IMG/VR virus record: IMGVR_UViG_3300037264_005395
Coordinates: 1 to 21,000 of that record
Strand: one strand, 5' to 3'
DNA length: 21,000 nt
Source: a virus
Of the stretch, positions 3,995 through 20,171 are shown one piece after another. The position numbers were made by a program, and so were the translations under genes. Each line of letters starts with the position of its first letter. The stretch's first letter is position 1. The notes below the pieces were generated by a model. The model saw only the letters and a program-made list of their open reading frames with translations. It had not been told where the DNA came from and did not search any database.

Positions 3995-4018
3995 CAAGGT
4001 AAGACGGATCGTAATGAT
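3991..4018 (+). promoter_or_regulatory. Candidate sigma70-like promoter before scaffold/capsid genes
   Basis: A perfect TTGACA (3991-3996, spanning the portal stop) is followed after 16 bases by AATGAT (4013-4018, 4 of 6 matches to TATAAT). Alternatively TAATGA lies at 15 bases. It opens the only long forward gap, just upstream of the highly expressed scaffold and capsid genes. Short motifs like this occur by chance, so confidence is low. Confidence 0.28.
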
Positions 4019-4025
4019 TTAGGCG

Positions 4026-4039
4026 AGTCGTAATCGACT
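4026..4039. promoter_or_regulatory. Operator-like palindrome at the expected transcription start
   Basis: AGTCG-TAAT-CGACT is an exact inverted repeat with a 4-base centre. It begins 7 bases after the candidate -10 element, about where transcription would start. It could be a repressor or activator site, or a small RNA hairpin at the 5' end of the transcript. No second copy was noticed in the window. Confidence 0.25.
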
Positions 4040-4142
4040 TACGAAAAACTGAGGGGCGGCGTCCTGACTGATCATCGGGGCGTTTTGCAAACGAACAATG
4101 GGCATCGTGGGCCACGGACACGGCGTCCTTTTCTTTTGCGCC

Positions 4143-4157
4143 CCTTTTTGAAAGGAA
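4143..4157 (+). promoter_or_regulatory. Ribosome-binding site of the scaffold gene, inside a small hairpin
   Basis: AAAGGAA (4151-4157) lies 7 bases before the ATG at 4165, a strong Shine-Dalgarno match. CCTTT (4143-4147) is exactly complementary to AAAGG (4151-4155) with a 3-base loop, so a weak A/T-rich hairpin could hide the site. Confidence 0.45.
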
Positions 4158-4164
4158 TTGGCTC

Positions 4165-5091
4165 ATGCCCGATACCGAGACGATAGCGCCGGAAACAACC
4201 GAGGCCGTTGACGTTGAACAAAGTCCCGTCGAGGCCGCGTCGGCCCGATGGACGGAGGCGCAATACGGCCCGGAGACGGCGGTAGAGACGCCGGAGGCTC
4301 CCGAAGCCGCGCCAGAGGAAAAGGCTGCGCCGGAAGCCAAGGTGGAAGCGGAGCCGGAAATCGACCCCGCGTTTCTGGCGCGGGCCGAAAGCTACGGGTT
4401 GGGCAAGGAGCACTTGTCCGGTATTGACCCGCAGCGAGTGGAGGACATGTTCGCGGCGTTCGACCGCCGGTTGCTGACGCAATCAAGTCCGCAGGCCCCG
4501 CCCGTCGTTGAGCCGAACCCGGCCCCGGCGGCGGAAGTCGCGGCCCAGCCCTTTGAGTTGACCCTCGACCCCGATGAAGTGGGCGAGCCGGTCATCAACG
4601 CCTTCAAGGGCTTACAGACTCAGTTTCAGGAAAAACTCAGTGCGTACGAGGAACGCGATCAGCAACGAGAACAACAGATACGGTCGTTGAACACCATGAT
4701 GGAGATTCAGGCGTTCGACGGCTTTCTCGCTGGAATGGGCGAGCAGTGGAATGACGTATTCGGGAAGGGCGCAACGCTCGACCTGAACGAAAACTCCAAG
4801 GAGTTCAAGGAGCGCGGCAAACTCCTGCAACAGGCGTTTGCGCTCCGGGATGTGTATGCCTCGAAATTCGGGCAGAACCTTCCCCGCGCCGAATTGTTCA
4901 AACGCGCCCACGCCGCCGTTTACTCCGACGAAATCCGCAAGCGGCAGTTGTCGGAACTGAACGGCAAGATGAAAGAGCGGGCGAAACAACACACCGAGCG
5001 ACCCGGCAAACAGGAACGTCCGCCCGCCGCCCCCAGGGAGCAGGCGGAGAACACCTGGAAGGTGGGTATGCGAAAAATAAGGAATTACTAG
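4165..5091 (+). CDS. Probable capsid scaffolding protein
   Basis: This 308-residue protein sits directly before the major capsid gene. It has the typical scaffold architecture: a low-complexity N-terminus rich in Glu, Ala and Pro (residues 1-75), a Pro/Ala linker (about 108-130), a charged coiled coil ('FQEKLSAYEERDQQREQQIR', near 150-180), and a strongly basic C-terminus (about residues 260-308) that would bind the capsid inner face. No protease motif is visible, so it is probably a separate scaffold rather than a protease-scaffold fusion. It would guide capsid assembly and then leave the shell. The stop lies 3 bases before the capsid ATG. The call rests on composition and position; sequence similarity to a named family was not recognised. 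Confidence 0.75.
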   Translation: MPDTETIAPETTEAVDVEQSPVEAASARWTEAQYGPETAVETPEAPEAAPEEKAAPEAKVEAEPEIDPAFLARAESYGLGKEHLSGIDPQRVEDMFAAFDRRLLTQSSPQAPPVVEPNPAPAAEVAAQPFELTLDPDEVGEPVINAFKGLQTQFQEKLSAYEERDQQREQQIRSLNTMMEIQAFDGFLAGMGEQWNDVFGKGATLDLNENSKEFKERGKLLQQAFALRDVYASKFGQNLPRAELFKRAHAAVYSDEIRKRQLSELNGKMKERAKQHTERPGKQERPPAAPREQAENTWKVGMRKIRNY

Positions 5092-5094
5092 GAA

Positions 5095-6159
5095 ATGGCA
5101 ACCATCAACATTGAGGCAGGCGACATTCCTGACCTGTTGATCTCAACCCTTTCGGATTTGCAGAAAGGGGTCTGGTATCAGGAATTCGCCGACATTCAGG
5201 ACTACCCCATCGCCCGGATGATGATGGAGGGCGGGGTAGGCAAGGAAGGCACGGGCCGGTCCTGCACCTTCCGCATGGCGGATGATCCCGGCGACGCCGA
5301 CGGCCACTACGGACTTTACACCGACTTCGACGTGGATCGCGGCGAGCACCTGGCCGAAGGCACGGTTCCGTGGCGGCATATTCGGCACGGCTTCGCGGTG
5401 GACGAGCATGAAGTGTCCATGAACAGCGGCGAAGCGCAGATCGTGGACGATATGGACGTTCAGCGTTCCGCGATGTGGCAGCGGGTGTCCAACGACATCG
5501 AGGGCGGCGCGTGGCAGGTGCCCGCGTCCGGCGACAATCTACTGGAACGCGGCATCCCCTACTACGTGCCGTGGAGTTCGACGGCGCTGGGCAGCTTCAA
5601 CGGAAGCGGCTTGCCTGCCGGTCATACCAGCGTGGCGGGCATTACGCCGTCCGCGCATCTCAAGTACGTGCCGTGGGCCGATACCTACATCAACCCAACG
5701 AGAGCCGACTTGGGCGTGAAGCTGATGAAGATGATCCGCCATATCAACTTCCGGCCTGCGGTAAACGTGAAGGCGGAGCAGACCGGCAAGAACCGGATGT
5801 ATATGGGCAACGAAGTGTTGCAGGACATGGAGACGATGGCGGCGAACCAAAACGATCAGTTGGGGTTCGACATCGGGGCGTCGATGGACAATACCGTCCT
5901 GAAGCGCACGCCGCTGGTCTGGGTTCCGCAGTTGGATACGTCGGCTGCCGCAGCCGCCGATCCGATCTACGTCATCAACCACAGCTACCTGTATCCCAAG
6001 TTTTTGCGCGGCTGGCGGTTCAAGGAATACCCGCCCGCTCCGCTGCCCAAGCAGCGAACGGCCATTGGGATCGAAACGCACGTGACCTTTAACTGGGTTT
6101 GCCCCATTCGCCGTCGGCTTGGCGTCATCGCAAAGAGCGCTCCGTTCGGCGAGAGCTAG
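5095..6159 (+). CDS. Major capsid protein
   Basis: This 354-residue protein is the probable shell subunit, with an HK97-type fold inferred. It follows the scaffold gene, as expected. AAGGA (5080-5084) lies 10 bases before the ATG. The N-terminal stretch 'LQKGVWYQEFADIQDYPIAR' looks like the N-arm of podovirus coat proteins. The middle has 'NPTRADLGVKLMKMIRHINF' (a spine-helix candidate). The C-terminal part, 'FLRGWRFKEYPPAPLPKQRT' then 'THVTFNWVCPIRRRLGVI', ends in beta strands as coat proteins often do. It appears to be full length, with no signal peptide or membrane segment. It would be the most abundant product of this operon. I am confident of the role from position and overall look; the subfamily is open. 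Confidence 0.83.
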   Translation: MATINIEAGDIPDLLISTLSDLQKGVWYQEFADIQDYPIARMMMEGGVGKEGTGRSCTFRMADDPGDADGHYGLYTDFDVDRGEHLAEGTVPWRHIRHGFAVDEHEVSMNSGEAQIVDDMDVQRSAMWQRVSNDIEGGAWQVPASGDNLLERGIPYYVPWSSTALGSFNGSGLPAGHTSVAGITPSAHLKYVPWADTYINPTRADLGVKLMKMIRHINFRPAVNVKAEQTGKNRMYMGNEVLQDMETMAANQNDQLGFDIGASMDNTVLKRTPLVWVPQLDTSAAAAADPIYVINHSYLYPKFLRGWRFKEYPPAPLPKQRTAIGIETHVTFNWVCPIRRRLGVIAKSAPFGES

Positions 6160-6211: not shown

Positions 6212-7024
6212 ATGCGCGAAGCACAATCACTAGGGCGAGTCGATACCGGTCCAAGTCCTCGAATCTGGCATAACTGCCCGTGGCACGCCATCCAGCAAGG
6301 TACGCGGCGGGGAATCGCCAAACACGAGGATTTCGAGAACTTCCCCGACTTGTCTACAACCGCGGTTACGGGTTTGTACGCCTCGTACGCCGCCACCGGC
6401 GCGACCATCAAGGGCAATCTGGTTGATGAGTTCGGAGTGGCCGAACTGACCGTGGACGCGGACGCGGATCAGGAAGCGATCATTCAGAGTTCCGGCGGAA
6501 TCGGGACGATGATCGAGTTCATCAATCCGACAACGGCCAATCCCCACGAAATCTGGTTTGAGGCTCGGTACAAGCTGACCGCCGCCGTATTCGCGGGCAA
6601 CAGCTTCATCGGCTTTCAAGAGTCAGTTGTTCCCGCAACGGGTACGGTGATTACCACCAGCGGCGTGATGACCGATCACGACTTTTTCGGTTTCTCGACG
6701 CTCGAAGCCACTCCGACGATCCTAAACTTAACCTACAAGGAAGAGGGGTCTACGGTCCAGGTTCCGATTACCACGGTGGCGACGATGGCGACCGGGACGT
6801 GGATCAATGTTGGGTTCCATTACAACCCGCTCTGGCCGAACGGCCACAAGATTGCCGTTTATGCCAACAACGACAAGAACGCCACCAAGGTCACTAAGGC
6901 CAATATGGACGCGGCCACGTTCCCGAAAGACGTGGCGATGGCGTTCACGGCGGCGATTATGAACGTCACGGACATTGAAGCCATGACGATCGACTGGTAT
7001 CGCGTGGCGATGCTGGAACTGTAG
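6212..7024 (+). CDS. Structural protein, beta-sandwich-like; possible decoration protein
   Basis: This is a 270-residue protein. The start is set by ATAGGAG (6197-6203), 8 bases before the ATG. After a basic N-terminal arm (residues 1-50), the body from about 60 to 270 is almost all beta strands with Thr/Val/Ala-rich turns. Segments such as 'MIEFINPTTANPHEIWFEAR' and 'ATGTWINVGFHYNPLWPNGH' resemble concanavalin/laminin-G-type sandwiches ('...W..v...y'). No catalytic motif is seen. Directly downstream of the capsid gene, such a protein is often a capsid decoration or head-fibre protein, but it could also be a minor head protein. The gene ends exactly where the next one starts. Coding status is firm; the role is inferred. 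Confidence 0.78.
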   Translation: MREAQSLGRVDTGPSPRIWHNCPWHAIQQGTRRGIAKHEDFENFPDLSTTAVTGLYASYAATGATIKGNLVDEFGVAELTVDADADQEAIIQSSGGIGTMIEFINPTTANPHEIWFEARYKLTAAVFAGNSFIGFQESVVPATGTVITTSGVMTDHDFFGFSTLEATPTILNLTYKEEGSTVQVPITTVATMATGTWINVGFHYNPLWPNGHKIAVYANNDKNATKVTKANMDAATFPKDVAMAFTAAIMNVTDIEAMTIDWYRVAMLEL

Positions 7025-8014
7025 GTGGCTGAATCCACGCTATCCCTGACGTTTGAGGACTTGGCCCGTTCCACGGCCTTCTATCTCGGCTGGGGCCGCA
7101 AGGCCGACGCCGCAGAGGGGCTGACGGCTGGGCAAGTCTCTCATGTTCTTGCGGCCAATAACGCCGGATACAGGAAGTTTCTCGGCTCGTTTGAGTGGAG
7201 CTTCCTGTATCCGAGCGTTTCCGCCGTGCTGTTCGGCACGGTGAACGGAACGGCGGAGGCGGGCCTGACCACCACGGTTACGGCGACGACGGCGTTGTTT
7301 TTCCCGACCATGATCGGGCAGAGCATCGTATTCGATGCGGTAGCCGGCGCGCCATTCACGGCGGGGAACTCCTATACGATTACCGGCTATACGTCCTCGA
7401 CGATCATTACCGTAAATACCACGGCGGCGGCGGATTCGAGTCGATTGTTCAGGATCACGCCCAACGGCCAGTATCGACTGGCCGATGATTTCGGCGGTGT
7501 GTACGGGAACCGCGTCCGGTTCTCCAACGACGAAGGTTGGGTCAAGCAGTTGACCATCACGGCAGAAGGCATTGTCGGCGGTTATTTGCAGGGAAGTACC
7601 AGCAGCGCCCGGCCTGAATACGTGGCGTTTCGGCCTTTGACGACCGATGGTGTGACCGGCCAGCGCTTTGAAATGCTGACATGGCCCATCCCCGACAGCA
7701 ACTACACCGTTCGATTCCGGCAGTTGGTGAATCCCAACGCCTTGCTGACCACGCTGTATCCCTACGGCGGGATGCAGCACGCCGAAACGCTGCGCTTGGC
7801 CTGCACGTCGGCGGCGGAGGCCATGTTCAATGACGGGCCTGGGGCGGAGGAAGCGAAGTATCAGCGGGCGCTGGCCGACAGTATGCGCCGGGATCAGCGG
7901 TCGATCCGCGCCGCGACGGTCGGGATCGCGGGCGATTCCGAGCCGCAGGACAACTACCACGACTACTACTCCGGCATCGACTCGGTGACGGTGGGCGGCG
8001 TGAGTTACAACTGA
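7025..8014 (+). CDS. Head-tail adaptor candidate (tail tubular A / gp6-like)
   Basis: This is a 329-residue protein with a GTG start immediately after the previous stop; no ATG is suitably placed. The N-terminus is helical ('TFEDLARSTAFYLGWG', then 'LAANNAGYRKFLGSFEWSFL'), as in adaptors that attach below the portal. An inserted Thr/Ala-rich beta domain follows (about residues 70-145). The C-terminus returns to helices: 'HAETLRLACTSAAEAMFNDG' then 'EEAKYQRALADSMRRDQRSI', a hallmark pattern of this adaptor group, in which the ends pack together. It would bridge portal and nozzle. The role follows from this helix-beta-helix layout and gene order. A minor capsid role is the alternative. Confidence 0.78.
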   Translation: MAESTLSLTFEDLARSTAFYLGWGRKADAAEGLTAGQVSHVLAANNAGYRKFLGSFEWSFLYPSVSAVLFGTVNGTAEAGLTTTVTATTALFFPTMIGQSIVFDAVAGAPFTAGNSYTITGYTSSTIITVNTTAAADSSRLFRITPNGQYRLADDFGGVYGNRVRFSNDEGWVKQLTITAEGIVGGYLQGSTSSARPEYVAFRPLTTDGVTGQRFEMLTWPIPDSNYTVRFRQLVNPNALLTTLYPYGGMQHAETLRLACTSAAEAMFNDGPGAEEAKYQRALADSMRRDQRSIRAATVGIAGDSEPQDNYHDYYSGIDSVTVGGVSYN

Positions 8015-8026
8015 CGAGAGGTTGAT

Positions 8027-8392
8027 ATGTACGAGAGATTACCGGTCGAGGCCGTACAAGGCGACGCGATCAAGCTGGCTCGCCACGCTCCTGCTGCGGA
8101 TGCGGCGGCGGTCGTGACGATCGCCGCCGTAGCGAACAACCGTCATGTGATTCGGCAGATTGATTGCAGCTATTCCGGCGGCGCGGTTGTTCCCGTTGTG
8201 GCGACGCTGACGGTGGCGATTGCAGGAGCAACCGTATGGGAAGTGCTGCTGCCCAAAGTGCTCGACGTGTACAGCTTCTACTTTCCTTATGGTTTGTATG
8301 ACGCCGACAGTTTGAATCAGGCCATTGTCGTTACGTTGGCCGATCCAGGCCAAGCGGGGACCACCGGGACGTTGAACGTCTTTTACGAATAG
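8027..8392 (+). CDS. Small beta-rich structural protein
   Basis: This is a 121-residue protein. GAGAGG (8016-8021) lies 5 bases before the ATG. The sequence alternates hydrophobic strands rich in Val, Ala and Thr ('VVTIAAVANNRHVIRQIDCS', 'VVATLTVAIAGATVWEVLL') with Gly/Asp turns, ending in 'GTLNVFYE'. This suggests a compact beta sandwich of about nine strands. Similar small proteins in phage head genes are spikes or decorations. No signal peptide is seen. I do not recognise a named family. The next gene begins 35 bases on, after a strong hairpin. Confidence 0.75.
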   Translation: MYERLPVEAVQGDAIKLARHAPAADAAAVVTIAAVANNRHVIRQIDCSYSGGAVVPVVATLTVAIAGATVWEVLLPKVLDVYSFYFPYGLYDADSLNQAIVVTLADPGQAGTTGTLNVFYE

Positions 8393-9316: not shown

Positions 9317-10849
9317 ATGCCCCAATTCATCGAAAGGCCGTTTCCGACAGCATGGTCTAATTTCCTCAGCCAGAAGCAGCTTGATCGGCTGCAACATTCC
9401 ATCGGCGAATACGAAGAGCGCAAGCAAAAGCAAAAGACGACCGGCACGGTTGTAGGACTTGTCGCCGGCGCGCTTGGCGGACTTGCGCTTGCTCCAGCCG
9501 CCGTGGCTTCCGCTGGTGCGGGTTCCGGCTTCGCCGCCGGTACGGCTCTGACGGCAGCGGGCACTTCTGCGCTAACAGGTGCGATTGTTCCAACTCTGAC
9601 CGGAGCGGCGCTCGGTAGTCAAATCGGTGGACAGCTTGCGGACAAGGATTACGCCGGGGCCATTGGCACGGCGGCGACCACTGCGGCGGGAATCGTCGAG
9701 TACAAAGAGAATGAACGCCTCTACGGCTATCAGCCCACAAAAGAGGACAAGGCGGCATTTGGCAAACTTGCGATCGAAGCCGGTACTACTCTTGGCGATG
9801 TAGCGAAGCGAGCAAGTCAGAACGGCACTACGATCGGGCAGGAGCTTGGCGTCGCGCGCGAAACCGAACAACGGCGCGATGTCGCCTTGGCGGGCGAGAT
9901 TGAATTCGAGCAGACGGCAGCGCATCTGCGGGCCAACAAAGCGGCGGCGCTGCAATCGCAACTATTCGATTTTGAGCCGGATCAGGCAAAGCTCGCTCAG
10001 ACACAGACCGACAAGGAGTGGATCGTCGAGAACATGCGTCCGCCGACGGGCGGCGGCGAGCCGCCGATCTCGATGGAGGAAGGTGCGCGCATGCTCGCGG
10101 AAGTAGCGCAGCGCGAGGACTTTCTGCTGAGCAATCCGCAGCGCGTGCCCAAGAAGGCTGTGACCATGAACGTCGAGGGGCTTGGCGCAGTCACCGAAGG
10201 TCAGCCGCGCAGGGTCGGCAACTGGCAAGTGTCCGTGGAACGCGAGAAGAGCGGCCAGCCGACGGTGAAGTGGCAGCAAGTACCGCCAGCTTGGATGTTT
10301 GAACCCGATCCCGCCGTGCGAAAAGCCAAGAGCGAGCAAGAGGCGGAGTCGCAAATCGTCACCGTCAGGGGCAAGGAATACCGCTGGAACAAAGACGGCA
10401 CGTTAGACGAGAACAAGCAGGATAAGGAGGACGGGAACGATTTCAAAGACCGACTAAAGCAAATAGAAGGTGCGCGCAAGGAACTCCAAAAAGAGCAAGA
10501 GAGCAAATTAAGCCTGACTGATTCAGAGGGGAAGGCGATATATCCCACCCTGCCGGACGTTACCGATCAAGAAGTTCTGGATCGCGTCAGGAAAAATAAG
10601 GCGCTCGTGGATCAACTCGATGCTCCGCCGCCGGAAGAGAAGCCTGCGGCGCAAGCAAGAAGCGCAGCGGCTTTAGTAACTGGTCCGCCCATGACGACGG
10701 AACAGATCGAATCGGGAACCGTGGAAAATCTCGGCCAGGAGATTGAAGCGATGATGAATAAGTACGGCAGCGTCGAAAAGATGAACCCGGATGACCGCGC
10801 ACAATTTCTAAGCATGGTCCAACTCTATAGGGCGTTGGGTGGCGGCTGA
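9317..10849 (+). CDS. Putative internal virion / ejection protein with glycine-rich membrane segment
   Basis: This is a 510-residue protein. The N-terminal 40 residues are charged and helical. Residues 42-130 are a long hydrophobic Gly/Ala run with glycine-zipper spacing ('TVVGLVAGALGGLALAPAAV', then 'GAALGSQIGGQLAD'), suited to packing inside a membrane. The rest (130-510) is hydrophilic and helical, with short beta segments near 280-320 and a Glu/Lys-rich coil near 380-410. No enzymatic motif is seen. A glycine zipper in a protein without signal peptide, next to a giant virion protein, suggests a protein packaged in the capsid and ejected to form part of the DNA conduit. No clear Shine-Dalgarno precedes the ATG. 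The stop overlaps the next start as TGATG. Confidence 0.82.
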   Translation: MPQFIERPFPTAWSNFLSQKQLDRLQHSIGEYEERKQKQKTTGTVVGLVAGALGGLALAPAAVASAGAGSGFAAGTALTAAGTSALTGAIVPTLTGAALGSQIGGQLADKDYAGAIGTAATTAAGIVEYKENERLYGYQPTKEDKAAFGKLAIEAGTTLGDVAKRASQNGTTIGQELGVARETEQRRDVALAGEIEFEQTAAHLRANKAAALQSQLFDFEPDQAKLAQTQTDKEWIVENMRPPTGGGEPPISMEEGARMLAEVAQREDFLLSNPQRVPKKAVTMNVEGLGAVTEGQPRRVGNWQVSVEREKSGQPTVKWQQVPPAWMFEPDPAVRKAKSEQEAESQIVTVRGKEYRWNKDGTLDENKQDKEDGNDFKDRLKQIEGARKELQKEQESKLSLTDSEGKAIYPTLPDVTDQEVLDRVRKNKALVDQLDAPPPEEKPAAQARSAAALVTGPPMTTEQIESGTVENLGQEIEAMMNKYGSVEKMNPDDRAQFLSMVQLYRALGGG

Positions 10850-13800
10850 TGCCCGAACTGCTTGCACGCATTGATGAATTCTTGGGGAACGAGCAAGAAG
10901 AATCCGCGCCGCCGCTTCCGTTGGGCAATCGCATTGACGCTTTTCTGGGATCAGTCGCCCGTGGGGCCGCGAATACGGCGGGTGAGATGTATTTGGAGGC
11001 CGGTCTAAATCCGCCGGGCGTGAATCGCCCTGGCGTTCCGATGGGGGACTACCAAGCCCCGTTGCCCGATCCATTCCGCCATGCGGTCCCAGGACCAATT
11101 GAAGCCACTTTGCGTAAGAGCGTGCCCGGCCTGATTGCCGGTGCTATCGAACGAGGTATAGGGATCGAAACACCAGAGGCGGATTTCGGTCCTGCCGGGA
11201 ATCTTGCCACGTCGGTCGGTGGACTTCTTGTTGATTTCCCGTTGTTCGGTCTGAGCGCTGCAGCGGGCAAAATAGTCGTCGAGGGGTTGGTCAAAAGGTT
11301 CGGTACGCGTGCTGTTACGCAAATGCTTGGCGAGAAAGCGTTGCCGAAGGTCGTCACCAAAACCATCGAAGCCGCTGTAACGCTTGGCGGTTACGACGCC
11401 GTTCGTGCGCCATTGGAGCATTACGTGGAGACGGGCGACGTGGACGCCTTGAAGCCGTTGGAAGGCTTCGTGAAGGGCGCGCTCGTTGGCGCGACGGCTC
11501 TTGGACCGGCTTCGATGCTGAAAGGTCCGGTTCGGCGTACTGCTGCGGAGATGGCTGGTTTTGCGGTCGCGCCAGCGCTTCTCGAAGAGCGTGCGCCTAC
11601 GCTGGAAGATGTCGCGCAGTCGGTCGGAACGATCGGCGGATTGAAGTTGGCGGGATTCACCGCGAAGAAATTGTTGACGCTGAAAGGTGCGAAAGAGTAT
11701 GCAAGGGCGTATCCCGAATCCGCGGACGCGATCGCCAAGATCGAAGGGCCGGTCAACAAGCGCGGTCCCATGCGCCAAGTCATTGAGGAAACCGGGCAGC
11801 AACTTGGCGAGAAGCTGCCCGAACAGGAACAGCGGAATCAATTCCGCGATTTGATAAAGGAGAACAAACGTGTCGAAATCAAAACCCCGGAAGCCCTCCC
11901 AGCCCAAGCCGCCGAAGAAGGCGCGGAAGGCAAAGAAGCCAAAGTCAACGCTGTACTAAATTCGGAATCTCAAGTCGAAGGTGGAATCAGGCGCGACGCG
12001 ACCATTCAAGAGAATGGGCAACCAATACTTGAGGTTCAATTTCTCCTTGCGCCGAACGGCGTCGCTACCGTCGAGAGCGTTCTTTTGCCAAAGGGCATCC
12101 GCTCGACGGCGGGCAAAGGAATTGCAGGCGTCGTTGCCGATGCTGGCACACTCGGAACTGGAAAATTGCTTGCCGTTTCTAGGGCACTAAAGCGGCAATT
12201 CCCTGATATTCAATCATTTGAAGGCGAAAGGCTGACTGGCGCAAGAGGTACGGCGAGTTCCTTTAAGGGATGGCCGCAGCTTGCCCAAGTCCCCAAAGCC
12301 GAAGTCGAGCCTGTACTAGCCTCCCCCGTCGGTGATGTATTAGCGAAGCAGCCGTGGGAGATGCAGATATCCGAGTTCACCGGAACGAATATTTCGTGGC
12401 AGCTTAATCGTGAGAGTGCCAAATTCAAAGCCTTATCACTAGAAGAACAAGCTCCTTATGTTGCAAAGCAGGGCATTAAAGATGCCATCAATAAGGGATT
12501 GAACGACTATCGAGATTTTGCCCATGATCTTGCGCGACGCGAAGCTGAATCAGGAAAAGATTGGACAAAGCGCGTCGCTGAATGGTCTGATAAGGATAAA
12601 GCTCACGAATGGCTCGTTAGACGAGCAGTCGCCGAAGGCAAACCCGTTCCGCCCGCCGTCCTCGCGGAATATCCAGACCTGAAGCCCGTCGAGCGGCAGA
12701 AGGGGACGGGGGCGGAGATACCGGCGGAACGTGCGCCAGTACGCTCGATGCCAGTTAGCGAAATCGGCGTCGATCCCGAACGGTTTCAATTCAAGACTGG
12801 CGTGGATGTTGAAGGTGCTGGAAAGTCCCTCAAGGGCGCAAAGCAATTCGATCCGCGACTCGCGGGCGTTGTTTCGGTTTGGACTGATCCGCAGACGGGT
12901 AAGACTTGGGTAGTCAATGGTCATCATCGCCTTGCGTTGGCGAAACGCAGTGGGGTCAAGAGCATCGACGTGCGGGCCATTGATGCGCCGACCGCCGAAG
13001 AGGCGCGTGCCTTCGGTGCGCTAATCAACATTGCGGAAGGTCGTGGCACGCCTGTTGACGCTGCAAAGTTTATGCGCGATAGCGGATTGACCGCTTCGCA
13101 GCTTGCCGACCAAAACATTGACCTGACGGACTACACCGCGCGGGAAGCCGTCGGCCTTACGAACTTACGCGACGATCTTTTCCAGCAAGTTGCCACGGGT
13201 CGCATGACAACCAAGCGCGGCGCGCTTATCGGCCGAGAGCTTCCCGATCACGCGGATCAAAAAGCAATCGCGGACATTCTTGCCAAGAAGTCGATGACCA
13301 ACGAAGTCCTACGGGAAATGATCCGTCTGGCGAAAACCGCGCCGCGAACGCAGCAGACGGAACAGACTCTTTTCGGCGAGGACGTACAAGAGGTAAACCT
13401 GCTTGCTCGTAAAGCGGAAATCTCGGCCTACGTGCGGCAGAAACTCCGTAACGCGAAGCAGGTATTCGGGTTTGTGTCCAACACCGACCGCGCGGCGATG
13501 ATCGAAGCCGGGAAAGCCGGGGTCGTGGATGTGGAGCAAGCCGCCAAATTAAGCGACGAAGCCGCGATTAGCTTGTTCCTATACGACAAATTATCGGGCT
13601 ATAAGGGGCCGGTTGCGGACGCCCTGAATCGTGCTACACTTGTAAAGGGGCTGAATGATGCCAAACGACAAGCCTTCGATGAAGTCAAACAAGCCTTGGC
13701 GGAAGCTGACGCCGCAACAGTGGCGTCGTCTGCTCCGTCAACTGAAACAGCACGTCCAGAAGCCCCCAAGTCGTTCGGCCTCGAAGTAGACCTGCTGGGC

Positions 13801-16359
13801 CAACCCCACGGATTTGCCGAAGCGGGCGGGCAAGGTCAACTGCTGTCGCCAGAAGCGATCGACGCGACTCGCAACAAGTCATTGAGGCGTAAGCCGCCCC
13901 CGAAACCGCCGGATGAACCCCTGCCCGACGTGCCGGGGCAGGGGAAGTTGCCGATTGACGAGCCATCTGGGCCGACAAGCATCAAAAATGCCGTGGTGGA
14001 CGAAGAACGCAAGGCGCGAGGTCTGCCGCCTGCGATGGAAGAGGCCAAGCGCAGCTTCCAGAAGGTATGGGATGAGGCCAGCGCCATCGCCGATTCCGAC
14101 CCCCATCGCGTAACAGGTTTGATCGACTCGCTCAAGGAAAATCCAAAGGCGATTGGCGACCTCGACGATGCGCTGCTTCTACATCGGCAGATCGAACTTC
14201 AAAACGAATACGATAAGGCACTGATACAGCGCGAGGCCATCACCGACCCGATCGAATTGGATCAACACATCGTCCGCGAAGATGCCCTGCTAAAACAACT
14301 GTTGAAACTGTACGACGTGGACAAGGCAGTCGGACGGGAAACCGCGCGGGGCCTGAATGCCCGCAAGATGCTGGCGAATGAAATGTTTTCGCTGGTCAAA
14401 ATGGCTGCGATGAAGCGCAACGCACTCGGCGTTAAAACCCTTGACGCTAATTCCGTTGAGCAGATCAAGGACGCCCACGCCAAGATCGCGGACTTCCAAA
14501 AGAAATACGATGACCTGTCGGCCAAGATGGACGCGATGGTCAAAGAACGGCAGTCTCGCGCCGCGCAACCGCGTACGCGCCGCACCACCAAGGCCAAGCA
14601 GGAATTGGAAGCGACGTGGAAAGAAGTGTTGTCCCATTGGGATTCTGTCACTTTCGCCAACCCTGTTCCGCAGGTGGCGCAACTGCTCGCCGATGGTGTC
14701 AAGGTGGCAAAGGCTTACATCAAAGTAGGCGGCGCAGGGGCCGCTGATTTCTACGCGGACGTGAAGGCCCGCTTCGGCGAAGAACGCTTTGCGAAAACGC
14801 AAGCTATATGGGAACAGGCGTGGAACGACGCGCAGGCGGGTTTGGGCGATAAGGAACTTGCTCGGATCGCCAAGCGCAAGGCGGCAATCGAGGACAAGAT
14901 TGCCCGTGGCGACTATTCCAAAAAAGTCCGCGTGCCCAAGAAGGTATCGAAAGCAGTTGAAGCTGCACGCTTCGATTTGGAGGAAGCACAGGCGCGGTGG
15001 CGACAAGGGCTAAGGAAAGACCAACGGAAGCGGCGGTCGCTTGTGGCGAAGGCGCTTGACTATTCCATCGGTATGCCGCTGGACATGCTTAAATCGCTGA
15101 AAACCACGTTTGACGTTTCAGCGGTCGGGCGACAGGGATTTCTAATCGGCATGGGGCATCCGTCGGTTGCGATCCAGAACTTCGGCACCATGTTTAAGGT
15201 CATGGCTCCGGGACGAATCGGCAGAGCGCAAGAATCGGCGGTGATGAACGAAATCCATTCCCGCGAGAACGCGCACTACTATCGACGCCACGACATGATG
15301 CTGGAGCCGGGCGAGGAAGAAGCCCATCCATCCAACGTCGTTACTAAGGTTCCCGGTATCGGAGCCAGCGAACGAAGCTATCGCGTCTACTTGAACAAAC
15401 TACGCGCCGATATGTTCGATCTATTGATGAGCGTGTGGCACAAAAAAGGTGGAACGAATGAAGCCAGGGACGCGGCGGCGGCTGATGCGGCCAGGTTCGT
15501 GAAGGTTTTCAGCGGTCGCGGGCCATTGGGCGAATTTGAGCGAGCCGCGAAAGGACTTAACCGAGCCTTTTTCTCGCCCCGCGCCGTGGCGTCAAGGTTT
15601 CAGGCTTTGACGCTGCATCCATTATTGAAAGCGTCCGATCCGACAATGCGCCGCATCATCGCCAAGGAATATGCCCGCACGGCGATGGGGATTGGCGCTT
15701 CCCTAAGTCTGATCGGTGCCGGGCTTTATGGCTTTTTTGGTCCACCGGGGCCGGATAAACGATGGGAATACGCGCTTGATCCGCGTTCGTGGAAAGGCTT
15801 GCGATTGCGGATTGGGCGCACCTGGATTGATCCGTGGGCGGGACTGGCGCAAGTCGTGCGGCTTGGCGCGAGGCTCGTAACCGGGAAAACCGCCAAGGAA
15901 AGCGGGCGGCTGGTTTCCATTCGCGGCAAAACGAAGTTTGGCGAACGTACGGCGGGCGATGTTGTTTCCTCGTGGTTTCGCAGCACGTTATCGCCCGGAG
16001 CCGGGACCGCGTGGAACATCGTAAGCGGCACAGACTATCTCGGCGATGAAATGAGCGCTAAGGACATCGCATGGGAGGCCATTGTTCCCATTGCGCCGGA
16101 CGATGTGGCGCATACGCTTAAAGAAGAAGGGTGGAGCAGGGGTTCCATTCTGGGATTGCTGTCGGCCACCGGACTAAATGTGCGGACGATGGAACAGCCC
16201 GACATGAAACGAATCAAGAGTTGGCGTAAAGCGGTCGAATACCAACCAGAGAAGCAGGACCACGAGAATTGGGATGACTTTCGGGCGAGAAAACACGCCG
16301 CCAACATTGACCGTAATTACGCTCGTCAACAGCTTCAACTTCTAAAAGAGGCCGGATGA
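10849..16359 (+). CDS. Giant polyvalent virion protein with ParB-like domain
   Basis: This is an 1836-residue protein, one-base overlapped with its upstream gene, and probably an internal protein ejected with the DNA. Layout: a duplicated RIDxFLG motif (residues 7-13, 28-34); a helical and hydrophobic region (115-330); an acidic linker (330-365); an alpha/beta domain (366-467); a ParB-like domain (about 625-735) with 'MPVSEIGVDPERF' at 634 and the 'NGHHR' motif at 690-694, followed by helical DNA-binding-like repeats to about 835; a Pro-rich linker (1012-1045); a coiled coil (about 1204-1238); and a conserved-looking C-terminal region from 1405 ('DVSAVGRQGFLIGMGHPS' at 1422) containing one hydrophobic segment (1612-1632). 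This mosaic is characteristic of large polyvalent phage proteins. ParB-like folds can bind DNA or CTP or cut DNA; which applies here is unknown. Confidence 0.88.
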   Translation: MPELLARIDEFLGNEQEESAPPLPLGNRIDAFLGSVARGAANTAGEMYLEAGLNPPGVNRPGVPMGDYQAPLPDPFRHAVPGPIEATLRKSVPGLIAGAIERGIGIETPEADFGPAGNLATSVGGLLVDFPLFGLSAAAGKIVVEGLVKRFGTRAVTQMLGEKALPKVVTKTIEAAVTLGGYDAVRAPLEHYVETGDVDALKPLEGFVKGALVGATALGPASMLKGPVRRTAAEMAGFAVAPALLEERAPTLEDVAQSVGTIGGLKLAGFTAKKLLTLKGAKEYARAYPESADAIAKIEGPVNKRGPMRQVIEETGQQLGEKLPEQEQRNQFRDLIKENKRVEIKTPEALPAQAAEEGAEGKEAKVNAVLNSESQVEGGIRRDATIQENGQPILEVQFLLAPNGVATVESVLLPKGIRSTAGKGIAGVVADAGTLGTGKLLAVSRALKRQFPDIQSFEGERLTGARGTASSFKGWPQLAQVPKAEVEPVLASPVGDVLAKQPWEMQISEFTGTNISWQLNRESAKFKALSLEEQAPYVAKQGIKDAINKGLNDYRDFAHDLARREAESGKDWTKRVAEWSDKDKAHEWLVRRAVAEGKPVPPAVLAEYPDLKPVERQKGTGAEIPAERAPVRSMPVSEIGVDPERFQFKTGVDVEGAGKSLKGAKQFDPRLAGVVSVWTDPQTGKTWVVNGHHRLALAKRSGVKSIDVRAIDAPTAEEARAFGALINIAEGRGTPVDAAKFMRDSGLTASQLADQNIDLTDYTAREAVGLTNLRDDLFQQVATGRMTTKRGALIGRELPDHADQKAIADILAKKSMTNEVLREMIRLAKTAPRTQQTEQTLFGEDVQEVNLLARKAEISAYVRQKLRNAKQVFGFVSNTDRAAMIEAGKAGVVDVEQAAKLSDEAAISLFLYDKLSGYKGPVADALNRATLVKGLNDAKRQAFDEVKQALAEADAATVASSAPSTETARPEAPKSFGLEVDLLGQPHGFAEAGGQGQLLSPEAIDATRNKSLRRKPPPKPPDEPLPDVPGQGKLPIDEPSGPTSIKNAVVDEERKARGLPPAMEEAKRSFQKVWDEASAIADSDPHRVTGLIDSLKENPKAIGDLDDALLLHRQIELQNEYDKALIQREAITDPIELDQHIVREDALLKQLLKLYDVDKAVGRETARGLNARKMLANEMFSLVKMAAMKRNALGVKTLDANSVEQIKDAHAKIADFQKKYDDLSAKMDAMVKERQSRAAQPRTRRTTKAKQELEATWKEVLSHWDSVTFANPVPQVAQLLADGVKVAKAYIKVGGAGAADFYADVKARFGEERFAKTQAIWEQAWNDAQAGLGDKELARIAKRKAAIEDKIARGDYSKKVRVPKKVSKAVEAARFDLEEAQARWRQGLRKDQRKRRSLVAKALDYSIGMPLDMLKSLKTTFDVSAVGRQGFLIGMGHPSVAIQNFGTMFKVMAPGRIGRAQESAVMNEIHSRENAHYYRRHDMMLEPGEEEAHPSNVVTKVPGIGASERSYRVYLNKLRADMFDLLMSVWHKKGGTNEARDAAAADAARFVKVFSGRGPLGEFERAAKGLNRAFFSPRAVASRFQALTLHPLLKASDPTMRRIIAKEYARTAMGIGASLSLIGAGLYGFFGPPGPDKRWEYALDPRSWKGLRLRIGRTWIDPWAGLAQVVRLGARLVTGKTAKESGRLVSIRGKTKFGERTAGDVVSSWFRSTLSPGAGTAWNIVSGTDYLGDEMSAKDIAWEAIVPIAPDDVAHTLKEEGWSRGSILGLLSATGLNVRTMEQPDMKRIKSWRKAVEYQPEKQDHENWDDFRARKHAANIDRNYARQQLQLLKEAG
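11870..11959 (+). CDS. Possible nested small basic ORF (29 aa) inside the giant gene
   Basis: In the +1 frame of the giant gene, AAAGGAG (11856-11862) stands 7 bases before a GTG that opens a 29-codon ORF ending in TAA. The product starts 'MSKSKPRKPSQPKPPKK' and is almost only Lys, Pro, Ser, Arg and Ala, with no acidic residue. It lies in the acidic linker before residue 366 of the main protein. A +1 reading of Glu/Ala-rich codons naturally gives Lys/Pro, so composition is weak evidence; the ribosome-binding site is the main support. Confidence 0.18.
   Translation: MSKSKPRKPSQPKPPKKARKAKKPKSTLY
13655..13789 (+). CDS. Possible nested small basic ORF (44 aa) inside the giant gene
   Basis: In the +1 frame, AAAGGGG (13644-13650) precedes tandem ATGs at 13655 and 13658; the second is 7 bases away. 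The ORF runs 44 codons to TAG. The product starts 'MMPNDKPSMKSNKPWRK' and continues 'LTPQQWRRLLRQLKQHVQK', a well-formed amphipathic helix with Trp, Leu and Arg, with 12 Lys/Arg against one Asp. This is less like a random shadow than most alternative-frame ORFs here. It lies in a Glu/Ala/Thr/Pro-rich linker of the main protein (about residues 936-980), where dual coding would be tolerated. It could bind nucleic acid. Expression is unproven. Confidence 0.28.
   Translation: MMPNDKPSMKSNKPWRKLTPQQWRRLLRQLKQHVQKPPSRSASK
13918..13944 (+). repeat. Perfect 9-bp inverted repeat in the giant gene's Pro-rich linker
   Basis: CCCCTGCCC (13918-13926) and GGGCAGGGG (13936-13944) are exact reverse complements with a 9-base loop. 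The stem has eight G/C pairs of nine. It falls in the codons of the Pro-rich linker near residue 1024. Pro and Gly codons favour such runs, so it may be incidental. Confidence 0.4.
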
Positions 16360-16366
16360 TGCGCAA

Positions 16367-16720
16367 CTACTCCAACGCAATCTTCAAGCGATCGTTCGGG
16401 ATCGGCTCTTTCGCCGCCTCGGCCTGCTTGCGGGCGGCATCGGATAGGGACGTGGCGACGGGTGCGAACATTGACAGGCGAATGATCCGCAGGTTGGCTT
16501 CGGGGGCATTGAACAAACCGCCGGGTTCGACTTGCTTACTCCATGCGCGAAAGTCATCGGCGATTTTCTTAAACAAGATGCCCAAGGAAATGTCGTCCTT
16601 CCCGCGGATCAAGGCATTTTTTTCAAGAGTTTCGGCTACTTGCCCTTGGCTGAGGATGGCGAAGCCTTGCGAGATAAAGGCGTATGGCGGCCCTGCGTTG
16701 TCTCCGTTTTTTTCGCTCAT
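16367..16720 (-). CDS. Probable reverse-strand small protein between giant gene and nozzle genes
   Basis: This is a 117-residue protein read from ATG 16720 down to the stop at 16367; a GTG at 16741 would add 7 residues. It has balanced charge and helical segments ('QGQVAETLEKNALIRGKDDI', 'SLGILFKKIADDFRAWSKQV', 'LSDAARKQAEAAKEPIPNDR'). First codon positions favour G and A, as in genuine genes, whereas the competing forward ORF has many T and gives a Ser/Arg/Cys-rich, nearly acid-free protein. Against it, no Shine-Dalgarno is seen, and the forward ORF fits the gap neatly. It would be convergent with the giant gene (7 bases between stops) and divergent from the nozzle gene (14 bases between starts). 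The function is unknown; a regulatory role is only a guess. Confidence 0.55.
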   Translation of the reverse strand: MSEKNGDNAGPPYAFISQGFAILSQGQVAETLEKNALIRGKDDISLGILFKKIADDFRAWSKQVEPGGLFNAPEANLRIIRLSMFAPVATSLSDAARKQAEAAKEPIPNDRLKIALE

Positions 16721-16734
16721 GGGGGCTTTGTAGC

Positions 16735-17505
16735 ATGGCACGCAACACGATTCAAGTAGTCGCCCCTCTCGCGGGCCTCGATCGGGCGTGGGCGTTCCAA
16801 AGCCAGCCGCCGTTCACCTTATGCGATGCCGCGAATGTAAGAGGTCGATCCACATTCGACGGTCGCGCGATCCTCGCTTCAAGGCCGGGGCTGGTGAAGG
16901 CGTTCGCGCAGAATGTGAGCACGGCGGCTGCAGTGGAGTCGTTCACGCGGCCTTTCGAGGTCCAGAATGATGCGTACATTTTCAGCCAAGACCCGAATGG
17001 CGTACAAGGCGGGAATCATTTCACCGGAACTTACAACGCAAGCGCTGGCTGGCGGTATCGCTCTCTTTACTATTTCAACCTGACGAGCCTTCTCGGTGCC
17101 ACCGTAACTCACGCGAACTTCAAAATTGGATCGCTGGTTGGCGTGCAGGGAGCCGCAGGACAAACGCTTTTCTCGGCGAATCGGATCACGCAGCCCGGAT
17201 GGGTTGATACGCAGGTGACGTGGAACAGATACACAACGTCTTTGACGTGGGCTTTAGCAGGCGGCGATTTTTCCACAATCAGTGCGTCACCCTATCTCCC
17301 GGCTACCAGCGGCGGGCAACACAACACGATCGTAGACATCACCGCGCTGGCGCTGGATGCAGTCGTATCTCGTTCCGGGCATCTTCATGTGCTTCTAAAG
17401 AAATTGGATGAAAGTATCGACAATAGCTATGCATCGAACTTCAACATCGAAGACCCGACGGACCTTGCGGCGGTCGTGGAGGTGACTTACGAGGTGGCTG
17501 TGTAA
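16735..17505 (+). CDS. Tail protein with nozzle-type N-terminus and DNRLRE-like domain
   Basis: This is a 256-residue protein. I chose the ATG at 16735: a GGGGG stretch (16721-16725) lies 9 bases upstream, and the sequence from there, 'PLAGLDRAWAFQSQPPFTLC' then 'DAANVRGRSTFDGRAILASRPGLVK' in two parts, is the N-terminal signature of phage tail-nozzle-type proteins (residues 11-55). Residues about 75-256 match the DNRLRE pattern: 'RYRSLYYFNLTSLLGATVTH', W156 and 'VTWNRYTT' (161-168), 'VDITALALDAV' (200-210), then a beta ending. DNRLRE domains are beta sandwiches of cell-surface and phage adhesion proteins. The stop overlaps the next ATG (TAATG). The expected propeller body is missing here and is found in the next gene. 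Confidence 0.82.
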   Translation: MARNTIQVVAPLAGLDRAWAFQSQPPFTLCDAANVRGRSTFDGRAILASRPGLVKAFAQNVSTAAAVESFTRPFEVQNDAYIFSQDPNGVQGGNHFTGTYNASAGWRYRSLYYFNLTSLLGATVTHANFKIGSLVGVQGAAGQTLFSANRITQPGWVDTQVTWNRYTTSLTWALAGGDFSTISASPYLPATSGGQHNTIVDITALALDAVVSRSGHLHVLLKKLDESIDNSYASNFNIEDPTDLAAVVEVTYEVAV

Positions 17506-20171
17506 TGGCAACAGAATGCCGTTTGCTCAATGTCTGTAGAACCCTTCCAACCGGAACGGGCGTCGTTCAGGCAATCCTCAACGGCACGTTCGTAGACGGT
17601 ACGGGTTGGACCTTGGGGGCCGGATGGTCTGTCGCCGGTGGCGTGGCAGTTGGCAGCAACGTCACCGGCTTTCTGACCGCGACCGTGGCACCATTGACTA
17701 TCGGCTTGATCTATCGCGTTACCTACACGGTGTCGTCTTACAGCGCGGGCGGGGTGCGCGTTCTCTTGGGAACCTCCGCCGCTGCGGGCGGAACGCGATC
17801 AGCGAATGGTACTTATACCGAAGATATTGTCGCCGCTACCACGGGTTTTAGGTTCGAGAGCAACGGCGGCAATTTCACGGGCAACATCGACTTTGTTACG
17901 GCAGTGCCCGTCGCCGAAACGTCTGTGCTTGATGCTTTTACCGCGATTGATACAACGCCGCCGAACTCTTGGGCCGATGTCGGCGGGACACTGGACGGCA
18001 CGGCGTCGTCGGGAATCATTGTCGCCGCCGGTGGGTTGGCGAAAACCACGGTCGTCGATGGTCTGCACACTGCTTATTTTTCGCTTACCGTCGCTGCGCC
18101 CGGACCCGATTATCTGATTTCCACATCGCAGTATCGGGAAGTCAGGCTTACCACCGTCGTTGTTCCGATTGACGGTGCTGTTTCAATTCTGATGGACATG
18201 GCGAACACCACGCCGGTCTACACCACCGGGCTGCGGATGAAGGTGGAGCGGCTATACACCACGCCCGCGCACACGGCGACCTACTGGAACGTGACCTTGT
18301 ATCTGAACGATGCGGTAGTCGCTACGGGTACGTCGTCACCGGCAACGAGTCCGCTCGCCGGAATGAAAATGACCATCGACGCCTTTAAGACGATTCGATG
18401 CTACTTGGATTCGGGCGGCTTTTATCCGGTCATCACCTACTACAGTGCCGCATACAATCCGGTCGGCGGTCGAGTCGGTCTGGCGCTCAAGGCCAAGGAT
18501 TTCGTGGATGCGTCCGCAGACTCGTTCTCTTTTTGGTACACGCCGGAAATTGCCACCACCCTTGCGGCTTCCGACCTTCCGTCGCGCACGTTGGTATCCT
18601 CCGCCAATGGACTCATCTACGTCGAGAAAAAAGACGGGACTATGGCCGTACTCGGAACAGCGGGTGCGGTGGTGCGCACGCTGGCGAGCGATCGACTGTT
18701 ATCCTCGGTGAATCGACTCGCCAAGCTCTACATCGCGGACTACGCCCTGCGCCGCTACGGAACCACGGGCAGCAATGCGGGGGCCGTCTTTACGGATTCG
18801 ACGTTTACCACGGCCACGCCATTCGATTCCATCGGCATCGACGCGGACGATGACCGTTTGGAAATCCTGTCGGGTACGAACGCGCCGATCGGAATTTACA
18901 ACATCACTGGTATTACGGCGACTACTCTCACAATTCAGGGTGGCACGCTCTTCCCGACTCCGCCGCAGAACGGATCGTCGCTGACCTATCGTATCTGTCG
19001 TGCTCCGAAAGTCTTTGATTCGTCGGCCATGACACTGAAACTTGTGCCGATCGGCGAAGTGCCGGATGCTAATGGTGTTGCCCGAACGCCCGGCCAGTAC
19101 CCGCTCGGCTGCACCATTGTTTCCGCGTGGCGCGATCGACTCATCTGGTCCGGCGATCCGTTATTCCCGCACGTTGCTTATTTTAGCAAAATTGGTGATC
19201 CAGACAATTATCTTTATGCCAATGAAACGGAAGATGAGGCTGTTGCCTATGATCCCGTTCATGCGGAAGGCGCTTCTCAGTTGAGCGACGCGGTGACGGC
19301 GGTTATCCCTCATAGTTACGATTATTGTATTTTCGCCGGTTATCGCTCCACGATGATTCAACGTGGCGATCCGACACTGAATCCCGTACCGGACCTCATC
19401 AGCCGCGACATCGGGATCATTGACAAGTACGCATGGTGCTATACCCCGGAGCAAGTGATTCTCGGCCTGAGTACGGATGGATTGTATCTGTTCAGTCCAA
19501 GCCCTAACTCCGTTCCGCTGCGCGTTTCCCGCGAACGGCTCCCCGCCGAATTGCTCGACATCGACACGGCCCGCTATGACGTTCAGCTTGCGTACGACAT
19601 AGAGCATCAGGGCGTGCATATTTGTCTTACGGAGCGAACGACCGGCGGGACCGGGCATTGGTGGTTTGATTGGGGCAAGAAGGCGTTTTGGCCGGAAACC
19701 TATCCACCCAATCAAGAACCGACGGCGATGTGCGTGCACACGGTCGCGGGATCAAATGTCCCATCGGTGATCTTCGGCTGCCGCGACGGGTATCTGCGGC
19801 GAGCGAGCGACGCTTCGGGCAGCGACGACAGTACGCCCTTTACGTCCACGGCTTTGCTTGGTCCGTTCCAACTTGGCTCACCGCAGTTCGTCGGCTTGCT
19901 TCATCGGATTTGGTTAGAATTTGCACGCAATCAAGGCGTTCTCACGATCGACGTGCTCATGGGCGACAGCGCGGAACGGGCGCGGTACGCGGTCCCGGCA
20001 TACACGTTCACCTACGCCGGGAGCAGCGAACCGACGGTGCCGAACGTCGAAATCGTCCGCGCTCGCGGTAGTGCGTGTTTTATTCGTATTACGAGTACGG
20101 CGGCTTTGCCCTGGGCTTTGGAGGCGATGTCGCTAGAAAGAGAAATCGTCGGCGAAAGGCGTCTCGCTTGA
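17505..20171 (+). CDS. Tail nozzle-like protein body with N-terminal carbohydrate-binding-type domains
   Basis: This is an 888-residue protein. Residues about 22-135 form a CBM-like beta sandwich ('ILNGTFVDGTGWTLGAGWSV', with an 'NGTF..GTGW' opening). Residues 140-350 form a second sandwich of laminin-G look ('DAFTAIDTTPPNSWADVGG', then 'TYWNVTLYLND'). From about 355 on it is propeller-like: 'TIVSAWRDRLIWSGDPLFPH' then 'FSKIGDPDNY', followed by 'VTAVIPHSYDYCIFAGYRST', 'GLSTDGLYLFSPSP' and 'VHICLTERTTGGTGHWWFDW'. These are repeated strand motifs I associate with gp12-type nozzle (tail tubular B) proteins of short-tailed phages, which close the tail tip and engage receptors. The usual N-terminal nozzle signature is absent because it is in the preceding gene. 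Translation is likely coupled through TAATG. Confidence 0.83.
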   Translation: MATECRLLNVCRTLPTGTGVVQAILNGTFVDGTGWTLGAGWSVAGGVAVGSNVTGFLTATVAPLTIGLIYRVTYTVSSYSAGGVRVLLGTSAAAGGTRSANGTYTEDIVAATTGFRFESNGGNFTGNIDFVTAVPVAETSVLDAFTAIDTTPPNSWADVGGTLDGTASSGIIVAAGGLAKTTVVDGLHTAYFSLTVAAPGPDYLISTSQYREVRLTTVVVPIDGAVSILMDMANTTPVYTTGLRMKVERLYTTPAHTATYWNVTLYLNDAVVATGTSSPATSPLAGMKMTIDAFKTIRCYLDSGGFYPVITYYSAAYNPVGGRVGLALKAKDFVDASADSFSFWYTPEIATTLAASDLPSRTLVSSANGLIYVEKKDGTMAVLGTAGAVVRTLASDRLLSSVNRLAKLYIADYALRRYGTTGSNAGAVFTDSTFTTATPFDSIGIDADDDRLEILSGTNAPIGIYNITGITATTLTIQGGTLFPTPPQNGSSLTYRICRAPKVFDSSAMTLKLVPIGEVPDANGVARTPGQYPLGCTIVSAWRDRLIWSGDPLFPHVAYFSKIGDPDNYLYANETEDEAVAYDPVHAEGASQLSDAVTAVIPHSYDYCIFAGYRSTMIQRGDPTLNPVPDLISRDIGIIDKYAWCYTPEQVILGLSTDGLYLFSPSPNSVPLRVSRERLPAELLDIDTARYDVQLAYDIEHQGVHICLTERTTGGTGHWWFDWGKKAFWPETYPPNQEPTAMCVHTVAGSNVPSVIFGCRDGYLRRASDASGSDDSTPFTSTALLGPFQLGSPQFVGLLHRIWLEFARNQGVLTIDVLMGDSAERARYAVPAYTFTYAGSSEPTVPNVEIVRARGSACFIRITSTAALPWALEAMSLEREIVGERRLA
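20154..20170 (+). promoter_or_regulatory. Ribosome-binding site that selects a TTG start
   Basis: GAAAGG (20154-20159) lies 8 bases before TTG (20168-20170), which overlaps the TGA stop of the nozzle gene. This choice is better than the far upstream ATG at 20075, which has no comparable site and would overlap the nozzle by 97 bases. Confidence 0.55.

Follow-up and report, generated by a model that had tools for sequence, protein, structure and literature searches.

The nozzles of T7 (gp12) and SU10 (gp17) are described as single-chain hexamers that seal the DNA channel (PMC6702177, PMC9509320). In T7 gp12, or tail tubular protein B, the platform strands are N-terminal and the propeller comes next; according to the same text, the 45-residue N-terminus contributes three of these strands (PMC6702177). 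In SU10 the platform is split around the propeller. After the N-terminal part of the platform the chain continues into blade 1; blades 1-3 are set back from the channel, and additional Ig-like domains are carried between blades 2 and 3 (PMC9509320). P22 gp10 and the Pa223 nozzle are short single chains, of 471 and 512 residues as solved. No description of a nozzle made from two genes was found in the nozzle literature covered, mostly at abstract level.

The DNA analysed here (the window) is a 21,000-base virus record from an uncultured phage. Gene 1 (16735..17505, +; 256 aa) and gene 2 (17505..20171, +; 888 aa) meet in a TAATG stop/start overlap (17503..17507, +), with GAGG 10 nt 5' of the ATG. 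These positions, lengths and the overlap had been given correctly in a first-pass annotation, which read the pair as an ancestral nozzle divided at a set of inserted adhesion domains. A podophage-type major capsid protein (5095-6159; NF033394, E 6.9e-25) and an 1836-aa internal-virion-like protein (10849-16359, +) are encoded upstream of gene 1, and a GP4 fibre-I-like protein (PF23140, E 6.2e-17) downstream of gene 2. Residues ~625-942 of the internal-virion-like protein are similar to Prochlorococcus phages P-SCSP1, at about 35% and with E as low as 7e-40, and match PHROG 21, labelled portal, as well. Single-sequence searches with the capsid protein and a 562-aa protein were empty. A 124-aa frame antisense to the operon (16367-16741, -) occupies the gap after the internal virion protein and reaches 7 nt into the start of gene 1. 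It is kept on the minus strand in two other contigs, L121 (locus L124 of that contig; 52.5% over 118 aa) and L117 (42.5% over 113 aa), and family searches with it gave no match.

Gene 1 opens with the nozzle arm (residues 1-57, PLAGLDRAW...SRPGLVK; 16735..16905, +), whose predicted role as platform strands is taken from T7 gp12 (PMC6702177). An arm profile of 60 positions was built from 57 single-chain nozzles, with the window left out of the seeds, and matched gene 1 with E 8e-14. Six-frame translations of 168 loci gave 152 matches to this profile in 30,028 segments. Of these, 136 were in the frame of the nozzle body, 16 were at most 3.5 kb upstream on the same strand, and none were elsewhere. 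Since matches are confined to nozzle frames or their near upstream, the N-terminal signature picked out in the first pass is far beyond chance. It was also rightly placed in gene 1 only: with filters off and E up to 1000, the profile matched none of the three gene 2 proteins (window, L121, L117).

The remainder of gene 1 holds a DNRLRE domain (residues 79-232; 16969..17430, +), as had been suspected. NF033679 matched with E 8.9e-11 and 42.1 bits, above its curated cut-off of 34. Three of the 13 members of the arm alignment passed this model, namely the gene 1 proteins of the window, L121 and L117; the other rows have no such region. None of 48 rows scanned (the three gene 2 proteins plus 45 intact chains) contained DNRLRE, and neither did any of 10 further intact chains. 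A genome scan with the gene 1 alignment returned two loci that matched the DNRLRE part only (a Bathyarchaeota MAG and a Planctomycetota MAG), and single-sequence searches with gene 1 were empty, including that of the annotated phage collection.

The first residues of gene 2 (1-14, MATECRLLNVCRTL; 17505..17546, +) correspond to a strand that in single chains comes after the linker of the arm and there reads HVNLLNSVRTG (L126) or VHLLANVRV (L022). An extra domain follows (residues ~18-138; 17556..17918, +), which, of the three split relatives, the window alone has. Its earlier label of 'CBM-like' could not be confirmed: Pfam gave 0 matches, the one PHROG match (E 1.1e-5) is to a family of unknown function, and the region is unfolded in the model of gene 2. 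The gene 2 proteins of L121 and L117 lack this domain and have fewer than 20 residues ahead of the lectin-like domain that comes next (residues ~139-346; 17919..18542, +). The latter was assigned via the single-chain homologue L048, residues 82-272 of which match ERGIC-53, CBM66, legume lectins and phage receptor-binding modules with Z 15-17, and it is thus a predicted concanavalin/laminin-G-like sandwich. The alignment between L048 and the window's gene 2 runs from residue 132 onward (32.5% over 756 columns), and the lectin-like domain therefore predates the break. The term 'laminin-G-like' stands as a statement of fold; it fails as a description of an insert at the break, since the domain is commonplace in the family and present in most intact chains. 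Profile and fold agree on the propeller body that had been assigned to gene 2 (residues ~361-775; 18585..19829, +; limits approximate). The C-terminal region (residues 776-888; 19830..20168, +; limits approximate) is predicted, from the secondary structure of the gene 2 model and the domain order of T7 gp12, to form a fibre dock and C-terminal platform strands. A single-sequence search of viral contigs with gene 2 gave no relative, and annotated phages yielded only tail tubular protein B at chance level (E 0.5).

Relatives were collected with a pattern of fixed spacing taken from gene 2 (RGDP...GI...AW), which matched at least 119 viral stretches. Among the matches listed, 115 lie in frames of at least 250 aa, and almost all of them look like nozzle propellers. 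A full nozzle profile of 781 positions was then made from 43 single-chain seeds. As judged by profile alignment, both halves of the pair are homologous to this one single-chain profile: gene 1 covers positions 3-82 (E 1.1e-20) and gene 2 positions 139-780 (E 1.8e-145), both E-values applying to a test of two sequences. Coverage by gene 1 and gene 2 is 2-74 and 67-780 in L121, and 3-67 and 66-780 in L117. A sequence search of the PDB with the family profile gave chance matches and no nozzle, and PHROG 376 ('tail protein') matches just 5 of 44 members.

The arrangement is the same in L121 and L117, where gene 1 consists of arm and DNRLRE, gene 2 of the remainder, and the two overlap by ATGA. Identity of these separate contigs to the window is 35-45% for gene 1 and 49-66% for gene 2, with both frames open. 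A frameshift from sequencing or assembly, or a decayed gene, is scarcely credible as the source of the break. Among the other loci L163 does look like a frameshift, within the lectin-like domain, and L098 and L020 are doubtful; here three separate contigs keep both frames open with overlapping starts and both halves conserved, and recurrence of the arrangement in L121 and L117 rules out a sequencing slip. It is also very improbable that programmed -1 frameshifting fuses the frames and makes the split merely apparent. In its favour, the frame of gene 2 relative to that of gene 1 is the same in all three contigs. However, no slippery heptamer was present at 17380-17520 of the window or in the searched junction stretches of L121 and L117, the ATG starts overlap the stops exactly (TAATG, ATGA, ATGA), and the shared open stretch is just 28 nt in L121 and L117.

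The nearest relatives outside this group in the tree are L125, whose frame runs off the 5' end of its locus, and L126, the nearest with a complete 5' end (grouping 98 by SH-aLRT). L126 is a single chain. In alignment, L126 residues 8-71 pair with residues 4-67 of gene 1, and L126 residues 264-816 with residues 321-887 of gene 2. The break falls between ...LVKAFA and ...RLLNVCRT, where L126 has a linker of about ten residues (KAFATELGSGNHVNLLNSVRT), and it is at this linker point that DNRLRE is located in the split lineage. An ancestral single nozzle now carried by two genes, as the first-pass annotation had proposed, is well supported because profile coverage is complementary, three contigs share the break and a close relative is intact. 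Its further proposal, that adhesion domains were inserted at the split, may hold for DNRLRE, the one domain that coincides with the break, though its arrival may have come before or after the division, as no intact chain scanned has it. It does not hold for the lectin-like domain, which is ancestral, nor for the 'CBM-like' region, which is absent from L121 and L117.

For a wider view of the family, loci were counted by contig. The sample combined the pattern matches (at least 119) with loci from searches that started from the window lineage and from L112/L019; 27 repeat loci were dropped and 141 contigs left, window included. Among the matches listed, arm and body share one frame in 112 of the 141, which supplies the intact fusions that the first pass had suggested looking for. 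The 888-residue protein is not already complete in the sense then intended, as its single-chain relatives have the arm that gene 2 lacks. Chains differ in the length of the slot between arm and body: the shortest with a clear measurement have about 50 aa there, the longest 443 to 574 aa. Among the matches listed, the median slot length is 243 aa, taken over those 88 of 112 intact chains in which the match to the body begins near the start of the profile, and the usual content of the slot is a concanavalin-type domain. The remaining contigs were tallied, among the matches listed, as 13 with the body frame off the 5' end, 10 with the arm in a different frame from the body, four bodyless (L008, L015, L073, L076) and two in which no arm was found (L023 and L081, the latter with just 295 nt upstream). 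One of the 13, L118, was shown by a later locus to be split by TAATG, bringing the contigs with arm and body in different frames to 11; given how contigs were gathered, 11 of 141 is not a population rate.

Eight of these 11 (among the matches listed) are clean breaks, every one in the slot between arm and propeller: the window, L121, L117, L009 (TAATG), L112 (TAAATG), L118 (TAATG), L019 and L013. L020, with one in-frame stop and a possible start at GTG, is doubtful, as is L098, which has a 122-nt frame overlap. L163 was removed as a split, its profile match running over 3-162 and then 170-780. In L019 the arm gene is followed by a 474-aa frame (6619-8040, +) and then the body, and in its relatives L112 and L118 no such frame separates arm gene and body. 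In L013 two further frames intervene (3534-5893, -). One has many Ser/His repeats, and the common ending of the two, ...LIYYEE(Y/F)S, is similar to LVASANGxLYxE, a strand of the nozzle. Relative to the RLLNV strand, the break lies before it in the window lineage, after it in L112, L118 and L019, and further on in L009. A quick LG+G4 tree of 114 labelled rows needed four changes for the eight clean splits. A single clade of all eight was not rejected by the AU test (p 0.113), its log-likelihood being 87.9 lower. The differences in break point between the groups speak for several origins. A different layout was seen in L038 (987-2120, -), L039 (7423-8542, +) and L049 (1049-2389, +), where an extra arm-bearing frame without a propeller match precedes an intact nozzle that has its own arm. 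The extra frame has an Ig-like match in L049 (Big_1, 2.4e-6, below the gathering score) and a weak one in L038.

Structural comparison was made with models of L048 and gene 2. The L048 model (pLDDT 90.9) has the fold of T7 gp12 end to end (6r21: Z 16.1, 477 aligned, rmsd 4.6) and scored Z 20.6 with Pa223, 19.2 with SU10 and 17.4 with P22 gp10. From residue 5-8 onward it aligns to residues 1-3 of the solved nozzles, only first and last aligned residues being given. SU10 was the best PDB match of both models in Foldseek (L048, 1.3e-19; gene 2, 2.0e-18), and gene 2 also matched the Pa223 nozzle (E 8.3e-16). By its modelled propeller and platform fold, gene 2 is placed with the podophage nozzles of gp12/gp10/gp17 type. 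A single polypeptide, usual for nozzles and not strictly defining, is replaced here by two overlapping frames, and this sets the pair apart from T7 gp12, SU10 gp17, P22 gp10 and Pa223 alike. Like SU10 gp17, it carries additional domains and would have a platform split around the propeller, though in SU10 these domains sit between two propeller blades and here between platform and propeller. The available text on T7 gp12 mentions neither a lectin-like nor a DNRLRE domain (PMC6702177). Other uncultured phages have nozzles with the lectin-like domain on one chain, L048 and L126 among them; these share arm, lectin-like domain and propeller by sequence, and differ in having one open frame and no DNRLRE in 55 scanned.

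We consider it probable that the protomer of this podophage nozzle consists of two chains, with the arm of gene 1 completing the platform of gene 2 in trans. The arm strands would complete the adaptor-docking platform, a part played in T7 gp12 by the 45 N-terminal residues, and gene 1 would hang DNRLRE outside the tail, where it may bind a surface glycan. Gene 2 would supply the strand following the arm, its private insert, the lectin-like domain, the propeller and the C-terminal platform. TAATG-coupled translation could keep both chains near 1:1, with presumably six copies of each per virion. The slot would face outward with all that it holds, namely DNRLRE in gene 1 and, in gene 2, the extra domain and the lectin-like one, as expected because the SU10 chain enters blade 1, away from the channel (PMC9509320).

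Alternatively, gene 1 could be a separate receptor-binding protein held by its arm as a generic anchor, with the gene 2 platform made otherwise. We regard this as unlikely, yet some observations favour it. The extra arm frames of L038, L039 and L049, with the Ig-like match in L049, show that a further protein can bear an arm where the nozzle is itself complete, and therefore an arm need not mean platform completion. The gene 2 model, moreover, aligns to nozzle N-termini, superposing on solved nozzles from residue 4-6. That model has a pLDDT of 74.2 with residues 12-122 mostly below 50, and unrelated propellers score equally high. We think that its apparent nozzle N-terminus is an artefact, because the gene 2 alignment placed single-chain arms onto gene 2 residues 15-85 and because so little precedes the lectin-like domain in L121 and L117, which have no room for a second arm. 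Against a generic anchor, the sole arm found in the window, L121 and L117 is that of gene 1, and its conservation matches the core. Identity between the window and L121 is 46/57 (80.7%) in the arm, 278/404 (68.8%) in the propeller and 56/173 (32.4%) in DNRLRE; with L117 the values are 50.9%, 58.0% and 30.8%. The arm, conserved about as well as the nozzle core and far better than DNRLRE, therefore evolves with the nozzle, unlike its fused domain.

The reading of a nozzle protomer in two chains can be extended tentatively, at slightly less than even confidence, to the platform-propeller connection as a general socket: phages would repeatedly break the nozzle at this point and put platform strands on a separate adhesin, which strand complementation then anchors. 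The extra arm proteins of L038, L039 and L049 and the intervening gene of L019 would be further uses of it. The pair would represent a new form of nozzle, and the similar breaks in other phages hint at a recurring plug-in site for surface-binding parts. If true, the two-chain reading would explain the orphan-looking stand-alone arm genes of about 75-100 residues in L013, L019, L112 and L118, and it would offer a testable case of strand complementation in the tail. Completion of the nozzle in trans by an adhesin would be a way for a core tail part to gain surface-binding modules with the channel undisturbed.
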